Positions 4,326 to 18,516 of a stretch of 51,364 nt of DNA are shown piece after piece. Positions within the stretch are counted from its first letter, which is position 1, and every line of letters starts with the position of its first letter. The translations under genes were made by a program, and so were the position numbers. Under the pieces are notes generated by a model. It had not been told where the DNA came from and ran no database searches. It saw only the letters and a program-made list of their open reading frames with translations. Origin of the DNA: Halanaerobium sp. MA284_MarDTE_T2. GTDB taxonomy: Bacteria > Bacillota > Halanaerobiia > Halanaerobiales > Halanaerobiaceae. The stretch lies in NCBI RefSeq assembly GCF_003337245.1, contig NZ_QPJE01000016.1:1-51364 (forward strand). Direction: 5' to 3'.

Positions 4326-4874
4326 TTAAAGCAGTGTTTTAAATACATCCTTATCAGGAGAAGAAATAAATACTTTATTATAGAGCATACCATTGTCCTT
4401 GCCGGCAGCTGCTCCTGCATTAAGAGCCTGTTTTACTGCACTGACATCTCCCGTAAATGTCACATATGCCTTTCCTCCCAAACCCGTACCCAATCTAACC
4501 TGTATAAGATCAACCTGAGCTGCTTTGGCAGCTGCATCTGCACCAATTATAGCACTTGCTATACTGAAATATTCCAGCACACCAACTGCATTAACTTTTT
4601 CTATCTCTGTAGTTGCATTAATTGCATTTAAAAGCTGATTGTGTATTCTTGAGATAACAAGATGGTCTACTACAAATGGATCACCTTTTTCTATTCCTGA
4701 TTTTACAGAAGATTTAACTGCACTTACATCTCCAGAAATTAAAATAGTATATTTACCCGGACAGGTTGGCTGTGCCAAAATCAGATCTACATCTGCTGCT
4801 TTTTTCATTATATCTGCTACTTTTATACCCTGGCTGATTGAGTTAAACTCAAGTAAGCCTATTGTAGTAATCAT
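4326..4874 (-). CDS. pduT: Tandem-BMC shell protein PduT, without the usual cluster cysteine
   Basis: A 182-residue protein with two BMC domains (about 1-90 and 94-182) that forms trimeric pseudohexamers. PduT from enterics carries a [4Fe-4S] cluster at the trimer pore, held by a Cys in a GGKCY context. Here that stretch reads GLGGKAYVTF with Ala136, and the only cysteine in the protein is Cys38 in TCPGK. The electron-conducting pore role may therefore be lost or altered. Its ATG overlaps the pduS stop (ATGA), so it is coupled to the flavoprotein-type reductase it is thought to partner. The family call is secure; the redox role is doubtful. Confidence 0.93.
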   Translation of the reverse strand: MITTIGLLEFNSISQGIKVADIMKKAADVDLILAQPTCPGKYTILISGDVSAVKSSVKSGIEKGDPFVVDHLVISRIHNQLLNAINATTEIEKVNAVGVLEYFSIASAIIGADAAAKAAQVDLIQVRLGTGLGGKAYVTFTGDVSAVKQALNAGAAAGKDNGMLYNKVFISSPDKDVFKTLL

Positions 4875-6241: not shown

Positions 6242-7660
6242 TTATATAATGGAGAATCCATCTACTAATACACATCTTCTCTTTCTGGTGAATGTTCTGG
6301 CAGAAGTTAATCCTTCACCAGTAGGACCAGCTATTGTAAAAGTTGTATGTCCCTCTCCTCCAGCACCGATACCTGCATAAGAAGGTGCATTTTTGACATA
6401 AATAGTAGTTTCAATTTTCTTGGCAAATGCTGTTAAATTATCTACATTTTTAGAATGAATTACTGCTGTATGTCTGTTCCCGTGTTCAACCTGAACTCCA
6501 ATTTCCATTGCTTCTTCAAAGTTTTTGGCTCTAACAAGAGGGATAACAGGCATCAGCTGTTCTTCCTGTACAAATGGATGGTCAAGTTCTACATCTACAA
6601 TTACAAGCCTCAAGTCCTCACATTTTGGTTTAATTCCTGCTTTGCGAAGGATATATGCAGCATTTTTACCAACAAGATCTTTGTTAATGGAACCATCATC
6701 ATTAAGAATAATTTTTTCCAGTGAAACTGTATCATCTATAAGCTGAGCATTATCATCGATCATGTGTTTTATTAATTCGTCTGCAACACTGTCCAGAGCA
6801 ACAATTACTTTTTCCGATGTACATGGTAAATTATTATCAAAACTTGCACCTTTAATAATATCTGATGCAGCTCTTTTTAAATCTACTGTATCATCAACCA
6901 ACACCGGGGGATTACCTGCTCCAGCACCAATAGCTTTTTTGCCTGAAGAAAGTGCTGCTTTTACCACACCTGGACCACCTGTAGCAACAATCATAGATAT
7001 TCTGTCATCAGCCATACAGCTTTCAACTGTTTGAATTGTAGGTTCAGCAACTGCTGTAAGTAGATTTGCAGGACCACCTGCTTCTATTATTGACTGATTT
7101 AAAACTTTAATTACATATGTTGAAGTTTTCTTTGCTCTGGGATGACCATTAAAAACTACTGTATTGCAGGCTGCTATCATTCCGATTGAATTGCAGATAA
7201 TAGTTTCTGATGGATTGGTTACAGGCGTTATTGCACAGATCACTCCAAAAGGTGCTTCCTCCAGAATTGTAAGACCTTTTTTCCCACTCTTAGCCTCAGT
7301 TCTAAGATCTTCGGTTCCAGGAGTTTTATTTATAGCTAAATTATTTTTTATAATTTTATCTTCTATTCTTCCCATACCACTTTCTTCATATGCCATCCGT
7401 GATATTTTATCAACATGCATACTTATTTCATTTCTCATGGCCTTTATTAGCTCTTCTCTTTCTTCTATAGAATAATCATTCTGAAGTATATTTTGAGCTT
7501 TACATGCTGCATCAATTGCCTCATCCATGGTAGGGAAAATGCCTAAATCTCCTTTAGAACTATTTTCAGTTTTATTATCTTTTATTTCAGTTTTTTCTTC
7601 CTCTATTTCTTTTAGTATCTGTTCTACTATTTTATTAATATCCTGATTTTTAATATCCAA
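6242..7660 (-). CDS. pduP: CoA-acylating propionaldehyde dehydrogenase PduP
   Basis: Oxidises propionaldehyde plus CoA to propionyl-CoA with NAD+ inside the shell. A TTG start at 7660 is favoured: AAGGAGGAG precedes it by a few bases, whereas the longer frame (to 7765) overlaps glcG by 80 bases. The N-terminus from that TTG, DIKNQDINKIVEQILKEI, has the amphipathic pattern of an encapsulation peptide, followed by a charged linker of about 25 residues. Seen in the aldehyde dehydrogenase core: EEAPFGVICAITPVTNPSET, the Rossmann-region GPGVVKAALSSGKKAIGAG, and the catalytic Cys in NNLPCTSEK. It is about 472 residues from this start. Confidence 0.93.
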   Translation of the reverse strand: MDIKNQDINKIVEQILKEIEEEKTEIKDNKTENSSKGDLGIFPTMDEAIDAACKAQNILQNDYSIEEREELIKAMRNEISMHVDKISRMAYEESGMGRIEDKIIKNNLAINKTPGTEDLRTEAKSGKKGLTILEEAPFGVICAITPVTNPSETIICNSIGMIAACNTVVFNGHPRAKKTSTYVIKVLNQSIIEAGGPANLLTAVAEPTIQTVESCMADDRISMIVATGGPGVVKAALSSGKKAIGAGAGNPPVLVDDTVDLKRAASDIIKGASFDNNLPCTSEKVIVALDSVADELIKHMIDDNAQLIDDTVSLEKIILNDDGSINKDLVGKNAAYILRKAGIKPKCEDLRLVIVDVELDHPFVQEEQLMPVIPLVRAKNFEEAMEIGVQVEHGNRHTAVIHSKNVDNLTAFAKKIETTIYVKNAPSYAGIGAGGEGHTTFTIAGPTGEGLTSARTFTRKRRCVLVDGFSII

Positions 7661-7685
7661 TCTTTCTCCTCCTTCCCTGTTTAAA

Positions 7686-8102
7686 CTAACTGCTCGTATA
7701 TCTATTGACAAAAAATTCTGCTCCCGATTCAGCAATTTCAATATCTTCATCCACAGTACCACCACTTACACCAACTGCTCCAACAACTTCCCCCTGACTT
7801 TTGAGCGGTATGCCGCCTCCAAAAAGGACTATATTTTCACAGGAAGTATCAATACCATAAAGCATATTGCCAGGACTCGAAATTTCTCCAAGTTCCTGAG
7901 TAGTCATCCGCAGAGCATAAGCAGTATAAGCCTTTGCAGGTGCCAGTTCAATACTTATGGGCAGGGCATTATCCATTTTTTTAAAAGTTATCAGTTTTCC
8001 ATCATCTCCAACCACAGAGATAACAGCCGCTAAATTCATTTTTTCTGCCTTTTTCTGGCACTGTTCTGCAATTTTTTCTGCTATATTAAGAGATATTTTC
8101 AT
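7686..8102 (-). CDS. GlcG/HbpS-like (DUF336) protein, PduO C-terminal-domain homologue
   Basis: A 138-residue DUF336 protein. In enteric PduO this domain is fused to the C-terminus of the adenosyltransferase and can bind haem; here it is a separate gene directly after the adenosyltransferase, three bases from its stop. Seen: the family motif block ALRMTTQELGE, a GGGIPLKSQGEVVGAVGVSGG loop region (about 94-114) and a C-terminal DEDIEIAESGAEFF. Probable role: accessory to cobalamin handling in the microcompartment (inference from its fusion partner elsewhere). Confidence 0.88.
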   Translation of the reverse strand: MKISLNIAEKIAEQCQKKAEKMNLAAVISVVGDDGKLITFKKMDNALPISIELAPAKAYTAYALRMTTQELGEISSPGNMLYGIDTSCENIVLFGGGIPLKSQGEVVGAVGVSGGTVDEDIEIAESGAEFFVNRYTSS

Positions 8103-8104
8103 AA

Positions 8105-8668
8105 CTAACTCTCCTCATTATTCAGAACCTGACAAACCTTCTCAGTAATTAAATCTATTAAATACCTTCTATCTGCAGTTCTGCTCAAAATATAAATGAG
8201 GTCAGACAGCCGATTAATATAACTATGGAGTATTTCCGAAAATTCTATATCTTTCTCTTCCTCAGCAGCTATAGTTCTTCTTTCAGCTCTCCTGCAGATT
8301 GTTCTGCAGATATCAAGCAGGCTGCCCACTTCACTTTCACCAGGTACTATAAATCCTGACAGATTAAAATCAGACTGATAAGAGTCTAGCTCAGCCTCCA
8401 GAAAAGCAAGGTGCTCTTGTTTTAATTTATCTTTGGGTTCTCGCCCTAAAGATGCAAGTTCTGCAGCAACTATAAATAAATCCTTCTGTACTTTAAAAAT
8501 TATTTGTTTAATATCAGCATCCTCACACTTTACCCGGGCCAGCCCCAACCAGGAGTTAAGCTCATCAATAACACCATATGCTTCAACCTGTGGGTCTGAT
8601 TTTGTGATTCTTTCACCACTCAGGAGGCTTGTATTTCCTCTATCCCCCCTTTTTGTCGCAATAGACAT
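8105..8668 (-). CDS. pduO: PduO-type ATP:cob(I)alamin adenosyltransferase
   Basis: Makes adenosylcobalamin, the cofactor of the diol dehydratase, from ATP and cob(I)alamin. Seen: N-terminal ATP-binding TKRGDRGNTSLLSGERI, the conserved VEAYGVIDELNSWLG, and C-terminal CRTICRRAERRT and SYINRLSDLIYILSR. The start at 8668 is chosen because GGAGGGGG lies about 8 bases upstream and the protein then opens MSIATKRGDRG as in the family; a longer frame runs 17 codons into pduN. 187 residues corresponds to the stand-alone N-terminal domain of enteric PduO. Confidence 0.93.
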   Translation of the reverse strand: MSIATKRGDRGNTSLLSGERITKSDPQVEAYGVIDELNSWLGLARVKCEDADIKQIIFKVQKDLFIVAAELASLGREPKDKLKQEHLAFLEAELDSYQSDFNLSGFIVPGESEVGSLLDICRTICRRAERRTIAAEEEKDIEFSEILHSYINRLSDLIYILSRTADRRYLIDLITEKVCQVLNNEES

Positions 8669-8669
8669 A

Positions 8670-8960
8670 TTAATAACCCCCTCCTGAAAAGCTTGACTCA
8701 TCAAGTTCAATTTCATCAATAATACCTACAATAGCATGATCTATTGGACTCCCTTTAAACTGATCAGTCTGACGTGCAGCACTACCTTTTGTGACAAGAA
8801 CTCTTTCACCAATTCCAGCACCTACACTGTCAACTGCAACCAGACATTTTTCTTTTCTAAATTCACCATATAAAGGGTGTACTAAAAGCAGTTTTGTTCC
8901 AACTAGATCTTTATCTTTCTGTGTAGCCACCACATTACCCACTACTCTGGCTGTAAACAT
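8670..8960 (-). CDS. pduN: BMC vertex protein PduN (EutN/CcmL family)
   Basis: A 96-residue pentameric vertex protein that caps the twelve corners of the icosahedral shell. Seen: the canonical opening ARVVGNVVATQKDKDLVGTK, LLLVHP, VAVDSVGAGIGERVLVTKGSAAR and a C-terminal HAIVGIIDEIEL. The ATG lies 19 bases inside the upstream flavoprotein/PduM gene, and its stop abuts the SD of pduO, so three genes are tightly packed. Confidence 0.95.
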   Translation of the reverse strand: MFTARVVGNVVATQKDKDLVGTKLLLVHPLYGEFRKEKCLVAVDSVGAGIGERVLVTKGSAARQTDQFKGSPIDHAIVGIIDEIELDESSFSGGGY

Positions 8961-9844
8961 AATATCATCCCTTTGTTTTCTGCCACTTCTCTGGCATATG
9001 GAGTAATTACTGCATCTTCCCTGACATATATTTTCTTAATAGTATCCCGAATAGGATTAATATCCTTATAGGTAATCACTTTTTTATTTAATACTACAGA
9101 AGTTCCCGTCCCAGCTTCTGCTGAGTTTTCTTTAGATAAATTGCTGTCATTAAATTCAGCTTTATTTTGAATTTTTGCTGTATCTGATTTAGAAAATATT
9201 ACTGATTCTCCATCAAAATTAAACTCTACATCGCTATTTAATTCATTTTTTAAGATACTGTCAGCTTCTTTATAAAGATCAGCAGCATCAACAATTTTAA
9301 TACCAAAACTTTTTACTCTTTTCAGCTGTTTTTGATTATATTCCAGTAAAGCTGTCGGAGTTTTATTCATCCCCAATTCTCTCCAGCCTTTTGCAGAAAT
9401 ATCAGCTGCATTTTTTACAGCTGCTACAGGTATACCGCACATAACAGCTCTAAAAATATAATCGATCAGCTGTGAATCTACAAAATGTGCTGATAATTTA
9501 GCCACTGTATTTCTGGTCATTACAGGAATTAATACAAGATCAGCATCATTGATACATTCAAAATCAGCTTCATAATTATCCCAATCAACATTAAGAGCTG
9601 ACAGTATTTCGCTTTTATCCAGCATCTTTTCTGCTGCAGTAGAAAAGAGAAAACTCCAATTAATATCATAAGTGCTGTCAATTTTTTTTAGCTGATCTAA
9701 ACTTTTTTGATAAGCAATTTTGCCTCCGGTAAAAACAGCTGTTATATTTTTCTTTTCCTTGTTTAGTTTGAAAGAATCTGTCATCAGAGTATTCAGTACT
9801 TCTCTGATAATTTTTTCTATCAGTTCTCTGTTCACTTCAACCAT
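8942..9844 (-). CDS. Flavoprotein-fold protein with PduM-like C-terminus and N-terminal encapsulation-like peptide
   Basis: A 300-residue protein in the place pduL/pduM usually hold. Seen: residues 1-20 (NRELIEKIIREVLNTLM) form an encapsulation-peptide-like amphipathic helix. About 30-190 look like the flavoprotein (Dfp/UbiX-type) fold: ITAVFTGGK, then DADLVLIPVMTRNTVAKL and FRAVMCGIPVAAVKNAAD. A charged linker of about 70 residues follows, then a C-terminal domain with ITYKDI and AVITPYAREVAENKG. That tail resembles the C-terminus of enteric PduM as I remember it. PduM is needed for normal shell formation in Salmonella. Flavin binding is inferred, not shown. It starts 20 bases after eutJ with SD GGAGG. 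Confidence 0.75.
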   Translation of the reverse strand: MVEVNRELIEKIIREVLNTLMTDSFKLNKEKKNITAVFTGGKIAYQKSLDQLKKIDSTYDINWSFLFSTAAEKMLDKSEILSALNVDWDNYEADFECINDADLVLIPVMTRNTVAKLSAHFVDSQLIDYIFRAVMCGIPVAAVKNAADISAKGWRELGMNKTPTALLEYNQKQLKRVKSFGIKIVDAADLYKEADSILKNELNSDVEFNFDGESVIFSKSDTAKIQNKAEFNDSNLSKENSAEAGTGTSVVLNKKVITYKDINPIRDTIKKIYVREDAVITPYAREVAENKGMILCLQPE

Positions 9845-10828: not shown

Positions 10829-11137
10829 TTACTCCATTTCCGGCATATCTAGTTTTTCAGCCACCATTTTAGGTAAAATTGTTTCAACATCTTTATGAGG
10901 TCTTGGAATAACATGTACAGAAATAAGTTCTCCAACTCTTCCGGCTGCTGCAGCTCCTGCATCAGTCGCTGCCTTAGTTGCTCCAACATCTCCTCTAACC
11001 AGTACTGTTATTAATCCTGAACCGATTTTTTCATAACCAACCAGAGATACATTAGCTGCTTTAACCATTGCATCTGCTGCTTCTATTGCTCCAATAAATC
11101 CTTTAGTTTCTATTAATCCTAAAGCTTCACCGTTCAC
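10829..11137 (-). CDS. pduJ: BMC shell hexamer protein PduJ
   Basis: A 102-residue single-domain BMC protein, one of the main facet hexamers. Seen: the BMC core [40 protein letters not shown] and SVHVIPRPH. It is nearly the same as PduA (18235-18507) across the core but has a longer C-terminal tail, [18 protein letters not shown] start is used, with GGGGG eight bases upstream. It is the last gene before the hairpin at 10786-10814. Confidence 0.95.
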
Positions 11138-11156: not shown

Positions 11157-11804
11157 TTAATTATCATCATTTATTATTTCATCATAGTGAATACAGTTCT
11201 TTCTCAGATCACCTTTTCTGCGCGGACAGGCTGGATCTCCACAAATATTGCAGATATCTTCTTCATCTTTATTATCTGATTCCACTTCTTCAACTTCATC
11301 TACTTTTTTAGCATCTTTTTCTGTATTTAAATCTTCATCATCTGTCTGTTTCTCACTCTCTTTTTCTGCATCATCTAAATCTTCATTATCTGATTCATCA
11401 TCTTCCTTATTTTCAGCGCTGCTGTCTTCAGATATTTTAGAATCACCTTCAGTTTCTTTAGGGGTTTGTTCCTGTTTAAACGAATTATCTTCAGAAATCT
11501 CGCCCTTTTCTTTTTTATAACCCACAGTTTCATCTGTACGAATCATATTATCAATATCCTTATGTGGTCTGGGAATAACATGAGCACCAACAACTTTGCT
11601 CAGTTTTGATGCTGCCTGTTTAGCTGCGTCTACAGCAGCTTTAACAGCACCAACATCACCAGTGAATTTGACAACAATCAAACCTCCACGGCTTATTTCA
11701 TAACCAATCAAATCAATATTAGCAGCTTTTTTAGCCACATCTGCAGCTTCAAACGCTGCATTTAAACCCAGAGTCTCTACCATACCAAGTGCAGTTTTTG
11801 CCAT
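11157..11804 (-). CDS. pduK: BMC shell protein PduK with long acidic linker and Cys-rich tail
   Basis: Residues 1-90 are a normal BMC domain (TALGMVETLGLNAAFEAADV, GDVGAVKAAVDAAK, AHVIPRPH). Residues about 95-185 are low-complexity, dominated by Glu, Asp, Ser and Lys. The C-terminus has CNICGDPACPRRKGD followed by CIHYDE, the Cys motif of PduK family tails that is suspected to bind metal or an Fe-S cluster. At 215 residues it is longer than enteric PduK (about 160 as I recall); the linker accounts for the difference. The upstream neighbour pduH carries a similar acidic stretch. Confidence 0.92.
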   Translation of the reverse strand: MAKTALGMVETLGLNAAFEAADVAKKAANIDLIGYEISRGGLIVVKFTGDVGAVKAAVDAAKQAASKLSKVVGAHVIPRPHKDIDNMIRTDETVGYKKEKGEISEDNSFKQEQTPKETEGDSKISEDSSAENKEDDESDNEDLDDAEKESEKQTDDEDLNTEKDAKKVDEVEEVESDNKDEEDICNICGDPACPRRKGDLRKNCIHYDEIINDDN

Positions 11805-11837: not shown

Positions 11838-12569
11838 TTAGTTATTTAATTTTTTAACCACATCCACAATTAAATCTGTCAGCAGATTAAGCTGTTTTTC
11901 AGATATACTATCTTCACTGTCCAAATTGATCTCACTAAAATCTTCAGAGTTATCTTTTTCCTCGTCAATTTTAGAATCACTATTTTTTTCATTATTTTTA
12001 GAACTATTCTTTTCTTCACTAATTTTTGTATTTATTTCTTGATCTTTATTTTCAGAAGAACTGCTGCTTTTAGAAGATAAAACAAGATCACTCAAACTGT
12101 ATTTATTGACTTGATCTGCATTTAAATCTGTTTCTGAATGCTTAAATTCTAATTTATCTTTTTCACTAAATTTAATATCCGGAGCAGAGCCTGTTGTAAA
12201 TTCATCTTTTAAGGGAATTTCTTTTACCGGAATACCTTTTACAAGTCTGGCAGCATTAGAGCCAATAATCTTTGCCTGAAAATTATAATCAATTTTTTTC
12301 TTGAAAAAAGGATTTTCCAGATCCAGTTTTTTATGCTGAAGCACAATATTATTATCAGCTCCTATACCAACACCGATATTAAGTCTTGATCTCTGTGCTG
12401 CTTCATGGGCCAGTATTTCTGGATTTTTCTCTTCACTTGCAAAATAATAGAAGGGAATGCCTTCTTCCTCAAGTCCATAGCAGACATTTTTAAAAATATC
12501 ACTACCTGCGATTTCCGCATCAAATCCTATATATACAGAAGGTTTTTTAGACTGCTCTTTACTACTCAT
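11838..12569 (-). CDS. pduH: Diol dehydratase reactivase small subunit PduH, with long linker and C-terminal amphipathic helix
   Basis: Residues 1-115 match the reactivase small subunit: VYIGFDAEIAGSDIFKNVCY, EEGIPFYYF, AQRSRLNIGVGIGADNNIVL and AARLVKGIPVKE. PduH swaps with PduD to eject damaged cobalamin. Enteric PduH is about 116 residues; this one is 243. The extra part is a Ser/Glu/Asp/Asn/Lys-rich linker (about 116-222) ending in ISEKQLNLLTDLIVDVVKKL, which has the hydrophobic pattern of an encapsulation peptide but at the C-terminus. It overlaps the pduG end by 8 bases. The core call is firm; the targeting role of the tail is inference. Confidence 0.88.
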   Translation of the reverse strand: MSSKEQSKKPSVYIGFDAEIAGSDIFKNVCYGLEEEGIPFYYFASEEKNPEILAHEAAQRSRLNIGVGIGADNNIVLQHKKLDLENPFFKKKIDYNFQAKIIGSNAARLVKGIPVKEIPLKDEFTTGSAPDIKFSEKDKLEFKHSETDLNADQVNKYSLSDLVLSSKSSSSSENKDQEINTKISEEKNSSKNNEKNSDSKIDEEKDNSEDFSEINLDSEDSISEKQLNLLTDLIVDVVKKLNN

Positions 12570-14397
12570 CTAAAACACTTCCCTCCTCGTCTAGATAAGA
12601 CAGCACAAGACCTGTTGCTACAGCATTGCGGGGGCCCATTAGTCCTCTAATATTTCCACGCCCTGCCACTACTCCATATTCCGAAAGACGGTTGGAAATC
12701 ATTGTTGGAATTTCAAAATCAATTGCCGATCCGCCAACCATTACTACAAAATCGATATCTCTTATATTTCCTGTTGGTATAATTCTTTTTAATGCCCTCT
12801 CTGAGTTGCGTACAAAAACATCATGTTTTGCTTCTCTTCTTACCTGACGAATTTTATCCAGCGAATGATCTGTATGAATCGGCACCATTTCATCATCAGA
12901 AAGAATTACTACTCTCCCAAATAATTTTGGCGGTAATGGTTCATCAAAAAAATTAACTGTCCCATCTTCATGCCTTATATGGAACATACTCTCCACTTTA
13001 GCAAGTGGAAATATTTTGATCATCTCTGCCAGCTTAACATCTGATAGACCCAGTTCGATATTAATCAAAAGTGAAACCATATCACCCGCACCTGCAAGAT
13101 GTGTTGTATATACCATATCTTTCCGTGTAACCATTGCAGCATCTGTGGAGCCGCCGCCCATATCCAGGATTACAAAAGGTTTGTCTGTACCTGGAGTTGT
13201 AAGGGCTCCTAGAATCGCCATATTGGCTTCAATACCTGCAATAGTTACTTCAATATCTGTTTTTTCTTTTAATTTATCAGCAATTTTCTGCATGGGAAGC
13301 TGGCTTGTTTTAACCATTGCTGCCAGTCCTACAGCATTTTCCATTGCATGCTCTTCTGCTAGTCCTCCTCTCACTTCTTTTGGGACAAAGGTATTTACTG
13401 CAAGTATATCCTTTATTTTAATTTCTGCAAGAGGCTGATCTGTAACTTTACTCATAGTTTCTTTTACTCGATCGAGCATACCACCGACATTTGTTCCCGC
13501 TTCACCTTTAACATCTTTTATTGGCTGAATTTTTTCTATCGAATCCATGATCTCTTCTGCACCTGCATCTATTCCTATTTCAGATTTTCCCCTGTCACCA
13601 AATATAACAAGATTTCCAGCAGGTATTTTACGCTCTTCTACATCACCTTCCGGTGTTCTTATTACAACTGCAGATCTATTCCCAATTAAAGATCTAGCCA
13701 CAGGAAAAATATGCTTTGTTTCTTCAGAGTCAAGCTCAAAGATTGTAGCTATGCCGTAGGGGTTGGAAAGTTTATCGATTGTACCACCAGGGCTGGCCAC
13801 TTCTACAGCAGCTTTTTTGCCAAGTGGTATTTTATCGATATATTTAACTTCATCAATAACCGGAATTATTTTATTGAGGCGGTTTACTATAAGTACTGCA
13901 TCATCTTTTTGTGCCACTGCACCATTAATATTGATCCCCTGTTCTGCTGCCTGATTGATAATATCTGCTGCTCTGGCAAAATCAACTTCTCCTGGTATGA
14001 TAAGTATAATATCATCACCAGGACGGCAGTCTTCAACATTTTCTACCCTGGTTGTTATCCCAACACCCAAGCCGACTCCACCAGGTGTCCAGGGGTCATG
14101 ACCTATCATGGTAGATTCTGTAATAACAGTTTCAGTTATTGTTTCCATTGCTACATCACCAATAACTGGTGTAGCTTCGTTTATCCTGATTAAATCAATA
14201 TCCTGGTAACTTAAATCGATTTTTTCTAATGCCCTATTTAAAGATTCCAGAATACCTTCAATATTATCTATTGTACCTTTTAATCCAGTGGTCTTATATA
14301 TACCATCTGATATAAACTCTATATTTTTATTTTCTACTCTGCCGACTGCAACTTCCGTAGTGGAGTTGCCGATATCGACCCCTACAATATATTCCAT
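12562..14397 (-). CDS. pduG: Diol dehydratase reactivase large subunit PduG
   Basis: The ATP-dependent large subunit of the factor that removes inactivated cobalamin from diol dehydratase. The 611-residue length from the chosen start is normal. Seen: the ASKHA phosphate-1 motif VGVDIGNSTTEVAVG at the N-terminus, a swiveling domain near 90-250, phosphate-2 VILDMGGGSTDAAMV near 413-427 and the C-terminal VVMVGGSAIDFEIP. The ATG at 14397 is preferred because GGTGGGTGGG precedes it; the GTG four codons upstream sits inside that SD. It lies between pduE and pduH and overlaps pduH. Confidence 0.95.
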   Translation of the reverse strand: MEYIVGVDIGNSTTEVAVGRVENKNIEFISDGIYKTTGLKGTIDNIEGILESLNRALEKIDLSYQDIDLIRINEATPVIGDVAMETITETVITESTMIGHDPWTPGGVGLGVGITTRVENVEDCRPGDDIILIIPGEVDFARAADIINQAAEQGININGAVAQKDDAVLIVNRLNKIIPVIDEVKYIDKIPLGKKAAVEVASPGGTIDKLSNPYGIATIFELDSEETKHIFPVARSLIGNRSAVVIRTPEGDVEERKIPAGNLVIFGDRGKSEIGIDAGAEEIMDSIEKIQPIKDVKGEAGTNVGGMLDRVKETMSKVTDQPLAEIKIKDILAVNTFVPKEVRGGLAEEHAMENAVGLAAMVKTSQLPMQKIADKLKEKTDIEVTIAGIEANMAILGALTTPGTDKPFVILDMGGGSTDAAMVTRKDMVYTTHLAGAGDMVSLLINIELGLSDVKLAEMIKIFPLAKVESMFHIRHEDGTVNFFDEPLPPKLFGRVVILSDDEMVPIHTDHSLDKIRQVRREAKHDVFVRNSERALKRIIPTGNIRDIDFVVMVGGSAIDFEIPTMISNRLSEYGVVAGRGNIRGLMGPRNAVATGLVLSYLDEEGSVLDE

Positions 14398-14418
14398 AAT
14401 CCCACCCACCTGTTAGCT

Positions 14419-14934
14419 TTATCTGTCACCTTTAAGTCTTTTTCTCTTTTCGTAAACATCTGCAGCTTCACGAATTAAGTTAGCATTAATAATTGCATCA
14501 TATTTGTTTTCAAGTTCATCTGCTATGTCCAGTAATTCTTTCTTTGTGGAACGATATGGACGCATGGCATTGTATATTTCAAGGATTCTATCATCTTCTA
14601 CTTTAGTTAATTCAGCAGCTCTTTCTAGGTTTTTAGCAAACTGCTCTCTGCCAACAGATTTCGCAATTTCTGCCTGATGATATAGTGTTTCTGCAGTGAT
14701 TCTTAACTCTGCACCATCTATTTCGCCAGAAAGAATTTTTTTAAGCTGAATATCGTCCAGGGTTTTCCCTGAAGGAGTTTTTACAAGGTCAGCTCTTTTT
14801 TCTGCAAGTGGGTAATCTTTATCTGAAAGACCATTACTGCTTTTATTTACTGCTGTGGTTTTACTTTCACCTTCAGCTTTTTCCAGATTACCAAGAACAT
14901 TACGCACAATAGATTCTACTAAATCTCTATCCAT
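14419..14934 (-). CDS. pduE: Diol dehydratase small subunit PduE
   Basis: The gamma subunit of adenosylcobalamin-dependent diol dehydratase. Residues 1-18 (MDRDLVESIVRNVLGNL) form an encapsulation-peptide-like helix, then a linker of about 30 residues, then the conserved core SGKTLDDIQLKKILSG, DGAELRITAETL, LERAAELTKV and MRPYRSTKKELLDIA. The ATG at 14934 is chosen over the GTG at 14943 because the SD AGGAGG runs directly into the GTG but sits 10 bases from the ATG. 171 residues is typical. Confidence 0.95.
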   Translation of the reverse strand: MDRDLVESIVRNVLGNLEKAEGESKTTAVNKSSNGLSDKDYPLAEKRADLVKTPSGKTLDDIQLKKILSGEIDGAELRITAETLYHQAEIAKSVGREQFAKNLERAAELTKVEDDRILEIYNAMRPYRSTKKELLDIADELENKYDAIINANLIREAADVYEKRKRLKGDR

Positions 14935-14961: not shown

Positions 14962-15618
14962 TTATTCAAATTTCACTTCAAGTTTAACAACCTTTTTCTG
15001 TGGATCAAGGTATTTAACTTCTTTATTATACAAAACAGCAGCTATTGCCTGATATTTAGGTCTTGCCATCTGATCATTACGGGTTGGAACAGGATCAGGA
15101 TTTTCTCCTTTTGCATATCTGGCAGCATTTTTTCCTATCTGACGATAAGTTTTTAAATCAAGCAGTGGTGCCTGTGGAAAAAGTTCCAAATTAGCAAGTG
15201 GATTTAGATCTTTCTGATGAATTAAAACCGTACCTTTTGACTGTAATCCAATTCCAATACCAGAACCACTTAACTGAGCTGCCTGATGACCAACAAAACC
15301 TACATCAGCGGTAGAATAATTTTTTACAACCCGTGCTTTTAATCCCTCTTCTTCAATACCAGCCATGATCTCACGCAAAATATTGCTGTGTTTTTCATCG
15401 ATCATAGTTTTTGTCAGTTTATCTCCGAATGCTGGTGCAACTCCAATAACAACTTCATCATTACTGCGACCTTCTTTAGCAGGACCAACTTCTTTTAAGA
15501 TCATATCACCTTTTCTTTCAGCAACGGCTGTATTAGAAGATGAGTTTTCTCCTTCTTCTGACATACCGGATAAAACATCAACCACAATTTTGCGAATTGC
15601 ATCTTCATTTAACTGCAT
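14962..15618 (-). CDS. pduD: Diol dehydratase medium subunit PduD
   Basis: The beta subunit of diol dehydratase, which helps hold the cobalamin. Residues 1-19 ([19 protein letters not shown]) are a clear encapsulation-peptide-like helix of the PduD type, followed by a Ser/Glu/Gly linker. The core has [53 protein letters not shown] and [26 protein letters not shown] lies 5 bases before the ATG. 218 residues is normal. Confidence 0.96.
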
Positions 15619-17385: not shown

Positions 17386-18210
17386 TTAAATATAGGGTGT
17401 TGCTGATGATTCGGGTTTAGCTCCAAGACTACCCAGAAGCTTCAAGCCAACTTCACGTGCAGCAACAATTGCCTGACGAACTGCTCCTGAATCTCCACTA
17501 AACTGCAGAATAACCTCATTGGTCAAGCTTGTACCTTCACTAGGACTTGCATATGCCACAACATCAATAGTAGCAGCTTTTACTGCAACATCAGCCATGA
17601 TAACTCCAATACCTGCTGGAGCACCAACTGTTATTCCAAATGCTTTACCTTCTGGAGCACCAAAAGCTGCATTCAAAGCTTTACTTGCTCTTGCAGTATA
17701 TTGAAATTCAAGATGACCGGCATCATTACCATAAACATCACCAAAAGTACGTTCAAGGTCTTCCAAAGCAACCTGAACTGCACGCCTGGCATCCGAAACT
17801 TCTTCAGCTCCAAAGATAATTAAGGACCCATGTCCGGCACCACCTTTGGTATCACGAGGAAGTTCAATTTTTACTATTTCAGTATTTGATGCCTTTACTG
17901 CTTCATCTGCTGCATAAATCTGAGGTCCTGCTCCAGTTCTACCACCAAAGACCCCTATTGAACGATATTTAGGATCAATACCCATTAATTTTCTTAAGTC
18001 TGGATCCACATTTGCAATGACCAGACCAATCGTATCTCCCATTGCTGTACCAATAAATTCAGTTACTTCATTAGCCAAATTCAAATTAAGCTCACCACCT
18101 TTATTATTTTTGTTTTTTTTGCTGTCTTCTTCTTTCTCAGCTGATGATTCAGCATTTTTAATTCTATTCACAACTTCATTAACTAAATCATTAATTTTGG
18201 TTTCTTCCAT
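17386..18210 (-). CDS. pduB: Tandem-BMC shell protein PduB
   Basis: A 274-residue trimeric shell protein with two BMC domains (about 48-150 and 160-265). The N-terminal extension (ETKINDLVNEVVNRIKNAES) is the part that in other systems links shell and cargo. It is followed by a Lys/Asn-rich linker. Seen: EFIGTAMGDTIGLVIANVDP, GVFGGRTGAGPQIYAADEAV, KGGAGHGSLIIFGAEEVSDA and FGITVGAPAGIGVIMADVAV. SD AGGAGGGTG precedes the ATG. It follows pduA by about 25 bases. Confidence 0.95.
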   Translation of the reverse strand: MEETKINDLVNEVVNRIKNAESSAEKEEDSKKNKNNKGGELNLNLANEVTEFIGTAMGDTIGLVIANVDPDLRKLMGIDPKYRSIGVFGGRTGAGPQIYAADEAVKASNTEIVKIELPRDTKGGAGHGSLIIFGAEEVSDARRAVQVALEDLERTFGDVYGNDAGHLEFQYTARASKALNAAFGAPEGKAFGITVGAPAGIGVIMADVAVKAATIDVVAYASPSEGTSLTNEVILQFSGDSGAVRQAIVAAREVGLKLLGSLGAKPESSATPYI

Positions 18211-18234: not shown

Positions 18235-18507
18235 TTATTCTGGTAGAAGTTTACTTACATCTTCATGGGGGCGTGGAATTACGTGTACAGAAACAACTTC
18301 ACCTACTTTTCCTGCTGCAGCTGCACCAGCATCGGTTGCTGCCTTGGTAGCTCCAACATCACCTCTTACCATGACTGTGATATAACCTGAACCAATCTTC
18401 TCATAACCAATCAACTTAACATTGGCTGCTTTAACCATAGCATCAGCTGCTTCAATTGCACCAACAAAGCCAATAGTTTCTACAAGTCCGAGTGCCTCTC
18501 TAGCCAT
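18235..18507 (-). CDS. pduA: BMC shell hexamer protein PduA, first gene of the pdu operon
   Basis: A 90-residue single-domain BMC protein forming facet hexamers with a small central pore. Seen: [60 protein letters not shown]. The ATG at 18507 is chosen because AAAGGAGG is 8 bases upstream; the GTG at 18516 overlaps the SD. It leads the operon, about 240 bases after a strong terminator, so the operon promoter should lie in 18517-18710. Confidence 0.96.
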
Positions 18508-18516
18508 GTATTGCAC

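Follow-up and report, generated by a model that had tools for sequence, protein, structure and literature searches.

A putative C-terminal encapsulation peptide on PduH, the small subunit of the diol dehydratase reactivase, in Halanaerobium

By what route are the B12-reactivation enzymes taken into the Pdu organelle? In Salmonella they have no recognisable signal. PduG is placed in the microcompartment core there without a signal sequence but relies on the PduD body (PMC12108088); PduGH by itself is dispersed (PMC9132943). Encapsulation peptides (EPs), which may sit at either end of a protein, consist of an amphipathic helix joined to it by a disordered linker (PMC8217296, PMC12339742). Their binding partners are shell hexamers; one model places them in the groove formed by neighbouring PduA tiles as these tessellate (PMC11157265). 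We analysed a stretch of 51,364 nucleotides from Halanaerobium sp. MA284_MarDTE_T2 (contig NZ_QPJE01000016.1; the window), in which PduH has a long C-terminal extension. A preliminary description of the window had proposed that this extension ends in a tethered tag bringing the reactivase into the lumen. The question raised by the locus is whether PduH carries an EP of its own.

The reactivase small subunit and its operon

The interval assigned to PduH in the preliminary description does encode this protein, on the minus strand; the plus strand at 11838-12569 is full of stops. The start of pduH is overlapped by the end of pduG, and pduCDE lie upstream, which gives the gene a dehydratase operon context. 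The pdu operon is complete and lies wholly on the minus strand. It contains the shell genes, pduCDE, pduG, pduH, eutJ, pduO, pduP and pduS among others, together with genes for a 300-aa protein, an HbpS-like domain (encoded on its own), an alcohol dehydrogenase and an acetate kinase. The features discussed below are collected in Table 1.

The core of PduH, which had been described as normal, was matched by Dehydratase_MU with an E-value of 8.5e-30 over residues 9-116. The nearest solved sequences are 1nbw_B (the beta subunit of glycerol dehydratase reactivase) and 2d0o_B (the small subunit of the diol dehydratase-reactivating factor). In the AlphaFold2 model of the PduH monomer, based on an alignment of 15 relatives, pLDDT of the core was above 90 nearly throughout. 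A Foldseek search with the core gave 1nbw_B (TM 0.91 by target length) and 2d0p_B (0.89), that is, the Dehydratase_MU fold of DdrB/GdrB. The next-ranked matches after the reactivase subunits were the medium subunits of diol dehydratase (PduD). PduH thus resembles the PduH/DdrB/GdrB small subunits in core fold, in sequence and in adjoining pduG, whereas about 120 residues are added here relative to the homologues of Salmonella, Klebsiella and the shell-less loci. Judged from sequence and model, the core is that of a genuine reactivase small subunit, and PduH is predicted to reactivate diol dehydratase with PduG.

Table 1. Coordinates of PduH, its parts and related features of the pdu operon in the window
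Feature	Position	Strand	Evidence
pduH, 243 aa, diol dehydratase reactivase small subunit with C-terminal extension	11838..12569	-	
PduH core, residues 9-116	12222..12545	-	Pfam PF02288 (Dehydratase_MU) 8.5e-30; Foldseek best 1nbw_B, 2d0p_B
PduH disordered low-complexity acidic linker, residues 117-221	11907..12221	-	composition; pLDDT mostly <55
PduH EP-like amphipathic C-terminal helix, residues 222-242, core LNLLTDLIVDVVKKL at 227-241	11844..11906	-	matrix score, predicted helix, conservation
pduG, reactivase large subunit, PduH partner, no EP-like terminus	12562..14409	-	TIGR04491
PduD N-terminal EP	15562..15606	-	score 24.8
PduE N-terminal EP RDLVESIVRNVLGNL	14884..14928	-	score 11.2
PduP N-terminal EP NQDINKIVEQILKEI	7604..7648	-	score 13.8
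PduB (shell protein) N-terminal EP-like helix ETKINDLVNEVVNRI	18160..18204	-	score 15.0
300-aa protein, N-terminal EP-like helix RELIEKIIREVLNTL	9785..9829	-	score 17.1
pduA, shell hexamer (BMC domain)	18235..18516	-	
pduJ, shell hexamer (BMC domain)	10829..11137	-	
PduK-like BMC protein, directly downstream of pduH	11157..11804	-	
pduN, EutN/CcmL shell vertex protein	8670..8960	-	
pduT-like shell protein, two BMC domains	4326..4874	-	

The C-terminal helix and the encapsulation peptides of the operon

The preliminary description spoke of about 105 low-complexity, acidic residues followed by a terminal helix, and the composition of the tail agrees with it. Residues 123-227 are of low complexity and contain 27 Asp/Glu, 14 Lys/Arg and 22 Ser (net charge -13, pI 4.4). 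The terminus after the acidic linker reads NLLTDLIVDVVKKLNN, and the sole strongly amphipathic stretch beyond the core is LLTDLIVDVVKKL, at residues 229-241. One helix was predicted in the tail, at residues 222-242 (pLDDT about 92), following a linker whose pLDDT is mostly below 55. The hydrophobic face of this helix includes Leu230, Ile234 and Val238. Its hydrophobic moment is 0.55, as compared with 0.54 for the PduD peptide and 0.57 for the PduE peptide. The tail thus has the short amphipathic alpha-helix, about 15-20 residues long, that is typical of EPs.

For scoring, a matrix of 15 columns was trained on PduD, PduE and PduB proteins of other loci (258 N-terminal ends in all); the window was excluded and no PduH was included. 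Among the 38 termini of the 19 proteins of the window operon, the matrix picked out six, namely the five N-terminal ends whose scores are given in Table 1 and the C-terminal end of PduH. The latter scored 8.2, and the best remaining terminus of the operon scored 0.6. The tail therefore carries the hydrophobic pattern common to established EPs of the same compartment. That the PduH helix has the hydrophobic spacing of the N-terminal peptides of PduD and PduE, as had been proposed, is borne out by both the moments and the matrix score.

Control C-termini were drawn from the window and the fetched loci. Within the last 40 residues, 6 of 1474 reached 8.2, all six in proteins from pdu loci with PduO adenosyltransferase-like N-terminal ends; within the last 126 residues, a length comparable to the long PduH tail, 13 of 1474 did so. 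Shuffles of the tail gave p = 0.018 for the same score. The match of this single tail alone is suggestive, and it becomes solid because the helix is conserved in relatives, as described below.

Other candidate positions were also scored. A second EP within the PduH linker (residues about 150-165, resembling the terminal PduH helix of the loci L006 and L161) was rejected, no linker segment scoring above -2.2. No EP was found on PduG, whose terminal scores were below -11 in the window and at best -7.9 (C-terminal) and -6.1 (N-terminal) in relatives. At the N-termini of the surveyed PduH proteins the matrix gave a single candidate (score 5.2), in the locus L139, where the candidate EP of PduH is N-terminal instead.

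Two observations concern the N-terminal peptides. Of the N-terminal EP-like helices in the operon, that of the 300-aa protein (8942-9844, minus strand) is the second strongest; the protein has no Pfam or NCBIfam match and is probably an uncharacterised lumen protein. The PduP frame (6242-7765, minus strand) opens upstream of its EP; translation probably begins about 35 codons past the listed GTG.

The tail in relatives and its association with shell genes

An alignment with related Halanaerobiales had been suggested as a check of the terminal helix. Our survey, which covered named genomes and 398 genomes drawn evenly from the phylum, yielded 104 distinct PduH proteins. Of these, 31, from Halanaerobium, Bacillaceae, Thermoactinomyces, Geosporobacter and other Bacillota, have a C-terminal extension with an EP-like helix at or close to its end; Bacillus methanolicus is a genetically tractable tailed species. 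Absence of the terminal helix from relatives would have counted against the tag; instead, each of the five other tailed Halanaerobiales proteins has it. The same ending was seen in every Halanaerobium PduH found and in one from another family of the order (examples are VERITKLVLEALKDS, VEKITQLVIEALKNN, VKEITKLVMETLKN and VKYLSDLITKIISEKIKN). Farther away, tailed PduH proteins end in ITRIVALVLKRL (Robertmurraya), IVSIIKKVLSEV (Thermoactinomyces) and IKSIVAEVVARL (Petromonas). The 99th percentile of the control C-termini was exceeded by 24 of the 31 tailed proteins and by none of the 73 untailed ones (Mann-Whitney p = 3e-15); 7 of the 31 scored under the threshold of the N-terminal matrix.

The linkers of these proteins differ, from about 15 to more than 100 residues, while the helix pattern is kept. 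As in EPs, the helix occupies a terminal position on a disordered and poorly conserved linker, which varies in length and sequence among relatives. A long acidic linker, emphasised in the preliminary description, is indeed present in this PduH, but it is not essential, since many relatives have linkers of 15-30 residues and some Halanaerobium linkers are rich in Asn, Thr and Lys. In several lineages (L142, L145-L148 and L155) 17-29 extra residues follow the helix. In the two closest Halanaerobium pairs, dN/dS was about 0.70 and 0.42 for the linker as compared with about 0.19 for the core. For the last 22 residues it was 0.15 in one pair; in the other pair only three codons differ.

These data bear on the idea that the extension is a drifted low-complexity tail in an AT-rich halophile, which at most aids solubility in salt, and that the helix is a chance hydrophobic patch. 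The linker is fast-changing and rich in Ser, Asp, Glu, Asn and Lys, and an acidic linker is found in the adjacent PduK-like protein as well, as this idea would suggest. The same helix pattern, however, ends PduH in Bacillaceae, Thermoactinomyces, Geosporobacter and other families, and the substitutions among Halanaerobium relatives preserve the hydrophobic positions of the helix. Judging from the aligned sequences, drift is largely refuted by this conservation, and we regard it as very improbable.

BMC shell genes were present within the fetched flanks of all 31 tailed PduH loci. No tailed PduH was found in 11 shell-less loci, which comprise seven loci of the survey and four annotated records (three haloarchaeal plasmids and the dha cluster of one E. 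coli plasmid). The Fisher test of tail against shell, in which related genomes were treated as independent, gave p = 0.10 for the survey alone and p = 0.03 when six annotated loci were added. On the tree, the tail must have been gained or lost about ten times, at least three times on firm branches. Independent contrasts on well-supported branches gave two to three pairs that agree and none that disagrees, which is too few for significance. Halanaerobacter, which joins the Halanaerobium clade in the tree (support 97/94), has genes for the dehydratase and its reactivase but neither shell genes nor a PduH tail. In the shell-less loci, PduD and PduE are likewise without EP-like N-terminal ends. 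A search for further shell-less PduH in two groups added none.

Of the 73 loci with untailed PduH, 66 nonetheless have shell genes. In Salmonella and Klebsiella, PduH has 116 residues and no tail, beside a full pdu operon. Since many shell-bearing lineages, Salmonella included, are without the tail, the tag is optional and not required for Pdu function generally. The same follows from the fact that Salmonella PduH is untagged, yet PduG is found in the microcompartment core.

It is worth considering that the helix could be a structural element of the reactivase, packing on PduG or on a second PduH, with no targeting role. Helical tails are frequent mediators of assembly, and the structure predicted here was that of the PduH monomer only. 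On the other hand, the solved DdrB/GdrB subunits have just 117-125 residues, approximately the length of the core, and a tether of about 15 to more than 100 residues among relatives would be odd for a fixed interface. In addition, the helix resembles the EPs of unrelated proteins of the same operon and is missing from all shell-less loci. We therefore consider a purely structural role improbable.

Possible routes of the reactivase into the lumen

The reading of the tail as an EP is supported because the helix is conserved, the tether is disordered, the N-terminal peptides of the operon are matched, and the tail is found only with shell genes. It is quite likely that the last 20 or so residues of PduH form a C-terminal EP, which would carry PduGH into the Pdu lumen. 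From the sequence and the model we infer binding to the shell or the core, localisation to the lumen, delivery of PduG together with PduH, and a gain for reactivation. The linker would serve as a flexible tether, and the helix would bind where the N-terminal peptides of PduD, PduE and PduP bind, that is, in the grooves of shell hexamers and/or at the enzyme core. PduH and its partner PduG would be loaded into the lumen on their own tag, beside the B12-dependent diol dehydratase that they reactivate. In tailed lineages, PduH would thus supply the tag missing in Salmonella, and PduGH would be loaded directly.

The reactivase is thought to work via exchange of PduH for PduD (PMC4315436). With an EP, the small subunit released during exchange would stay in the lumen. 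The tag might even serve for retention rather than one-time loading, keeping PduH, replaced by PduD on PduG, inside the organelle in each cycle, with untagged lineages piggy-backing on PduD; we think such a role rather unlikely.

There is also a sub-variant of the EP reading, in which the helix is a condensation tag. It would bundle with the EP helices of PduD, PduE and PduP and pull the reactivase into the enzyme core, the shell being met indirectly. Cargo condensation, besides encapsulation, is reported to be driven by EPs (PMC12339742). In Salmonella, moreover, removal of the PduB N-terminus leaves cargo enzymes, PduG among them, clustered with PduE at one pole (PMC9132943). Core binding and shell binding, however, predict the same sequence signature. 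We hold this sub-variant, the probability of which overlaps with that of the EP reading as a whole, to be a tentative possibility.

As an EP, the PduH helix would be similar to the N-terminal Pdu EPs in its length of about 15-20 residues, its amphipathicity, its hydrophobic spacing, its disordered linker and its occurrence on a protein of the same operon. It differs from them in being C-terminal and in belonging to a cofactor-reactivation subunit, which is without a signal sequence in Salmonella. PduD is a further comparison: both proteins bear such a helix and their core folds are alike, but the EP of PduD is N-terminal. C-terminal EPs are known on other cargo, namely CcmN, type I aldehyde dehydrogenases (EUT2) and class II aldolase (PMC8217296, PMC12339742). 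In these, too, a terminal helix follows a flexible linker, whereas PduH is a different cargo family. An EP on PduH appears to be new: no report of one on PduH or on the diol dehydratase reactivase was found in the literature searched, which excluded the EP review of Aussignargues 2015 (it may list PduH).

If many Bacillota tag PduH with an EP, there would be two routes for one enzyme, and the piggy-back model would become testable by comparison. An EP on PduH would also argue that the reactivase must be inside the shell. For engineered compartments, the tail would in addition provide a natural C-terminal loading tag with a choice of tethers, from about 15 to more than 100 residues, and some of these tags come from salt-adapted organisms.

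Several neighbouring proteins showed terminal features of their own. The PduK-like protein combines an acidic linker of about 90 residues with a Cys motif at its C-terminus, CNICGDPACPRRKGDLRKNCIHY; in L008 and L010 the shell gene downstream ends in a similar motif. In L139 and L144, both loci with shell genes, class II aldolase-like ORFs of 240 aa end in ISELVNVITKKVLEQLKYN, an EP-like C-terminal helix. The two PduO domains are separate genes in the window (8105-8719 and 7686-8102, both on the minus strand). PduO has an additional C-terminal helix past the adenosyltransferase domain; the PduO proteins of L072, L162 and L167, all shell-less loci, lack this helix. In most other shell-bearing loci, this region sits between the two PduO domains. 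The extra helix is EP-like in H. polyolivorans (score 10.8) and in some lactobacilli, and scores only 0.6 in the window.
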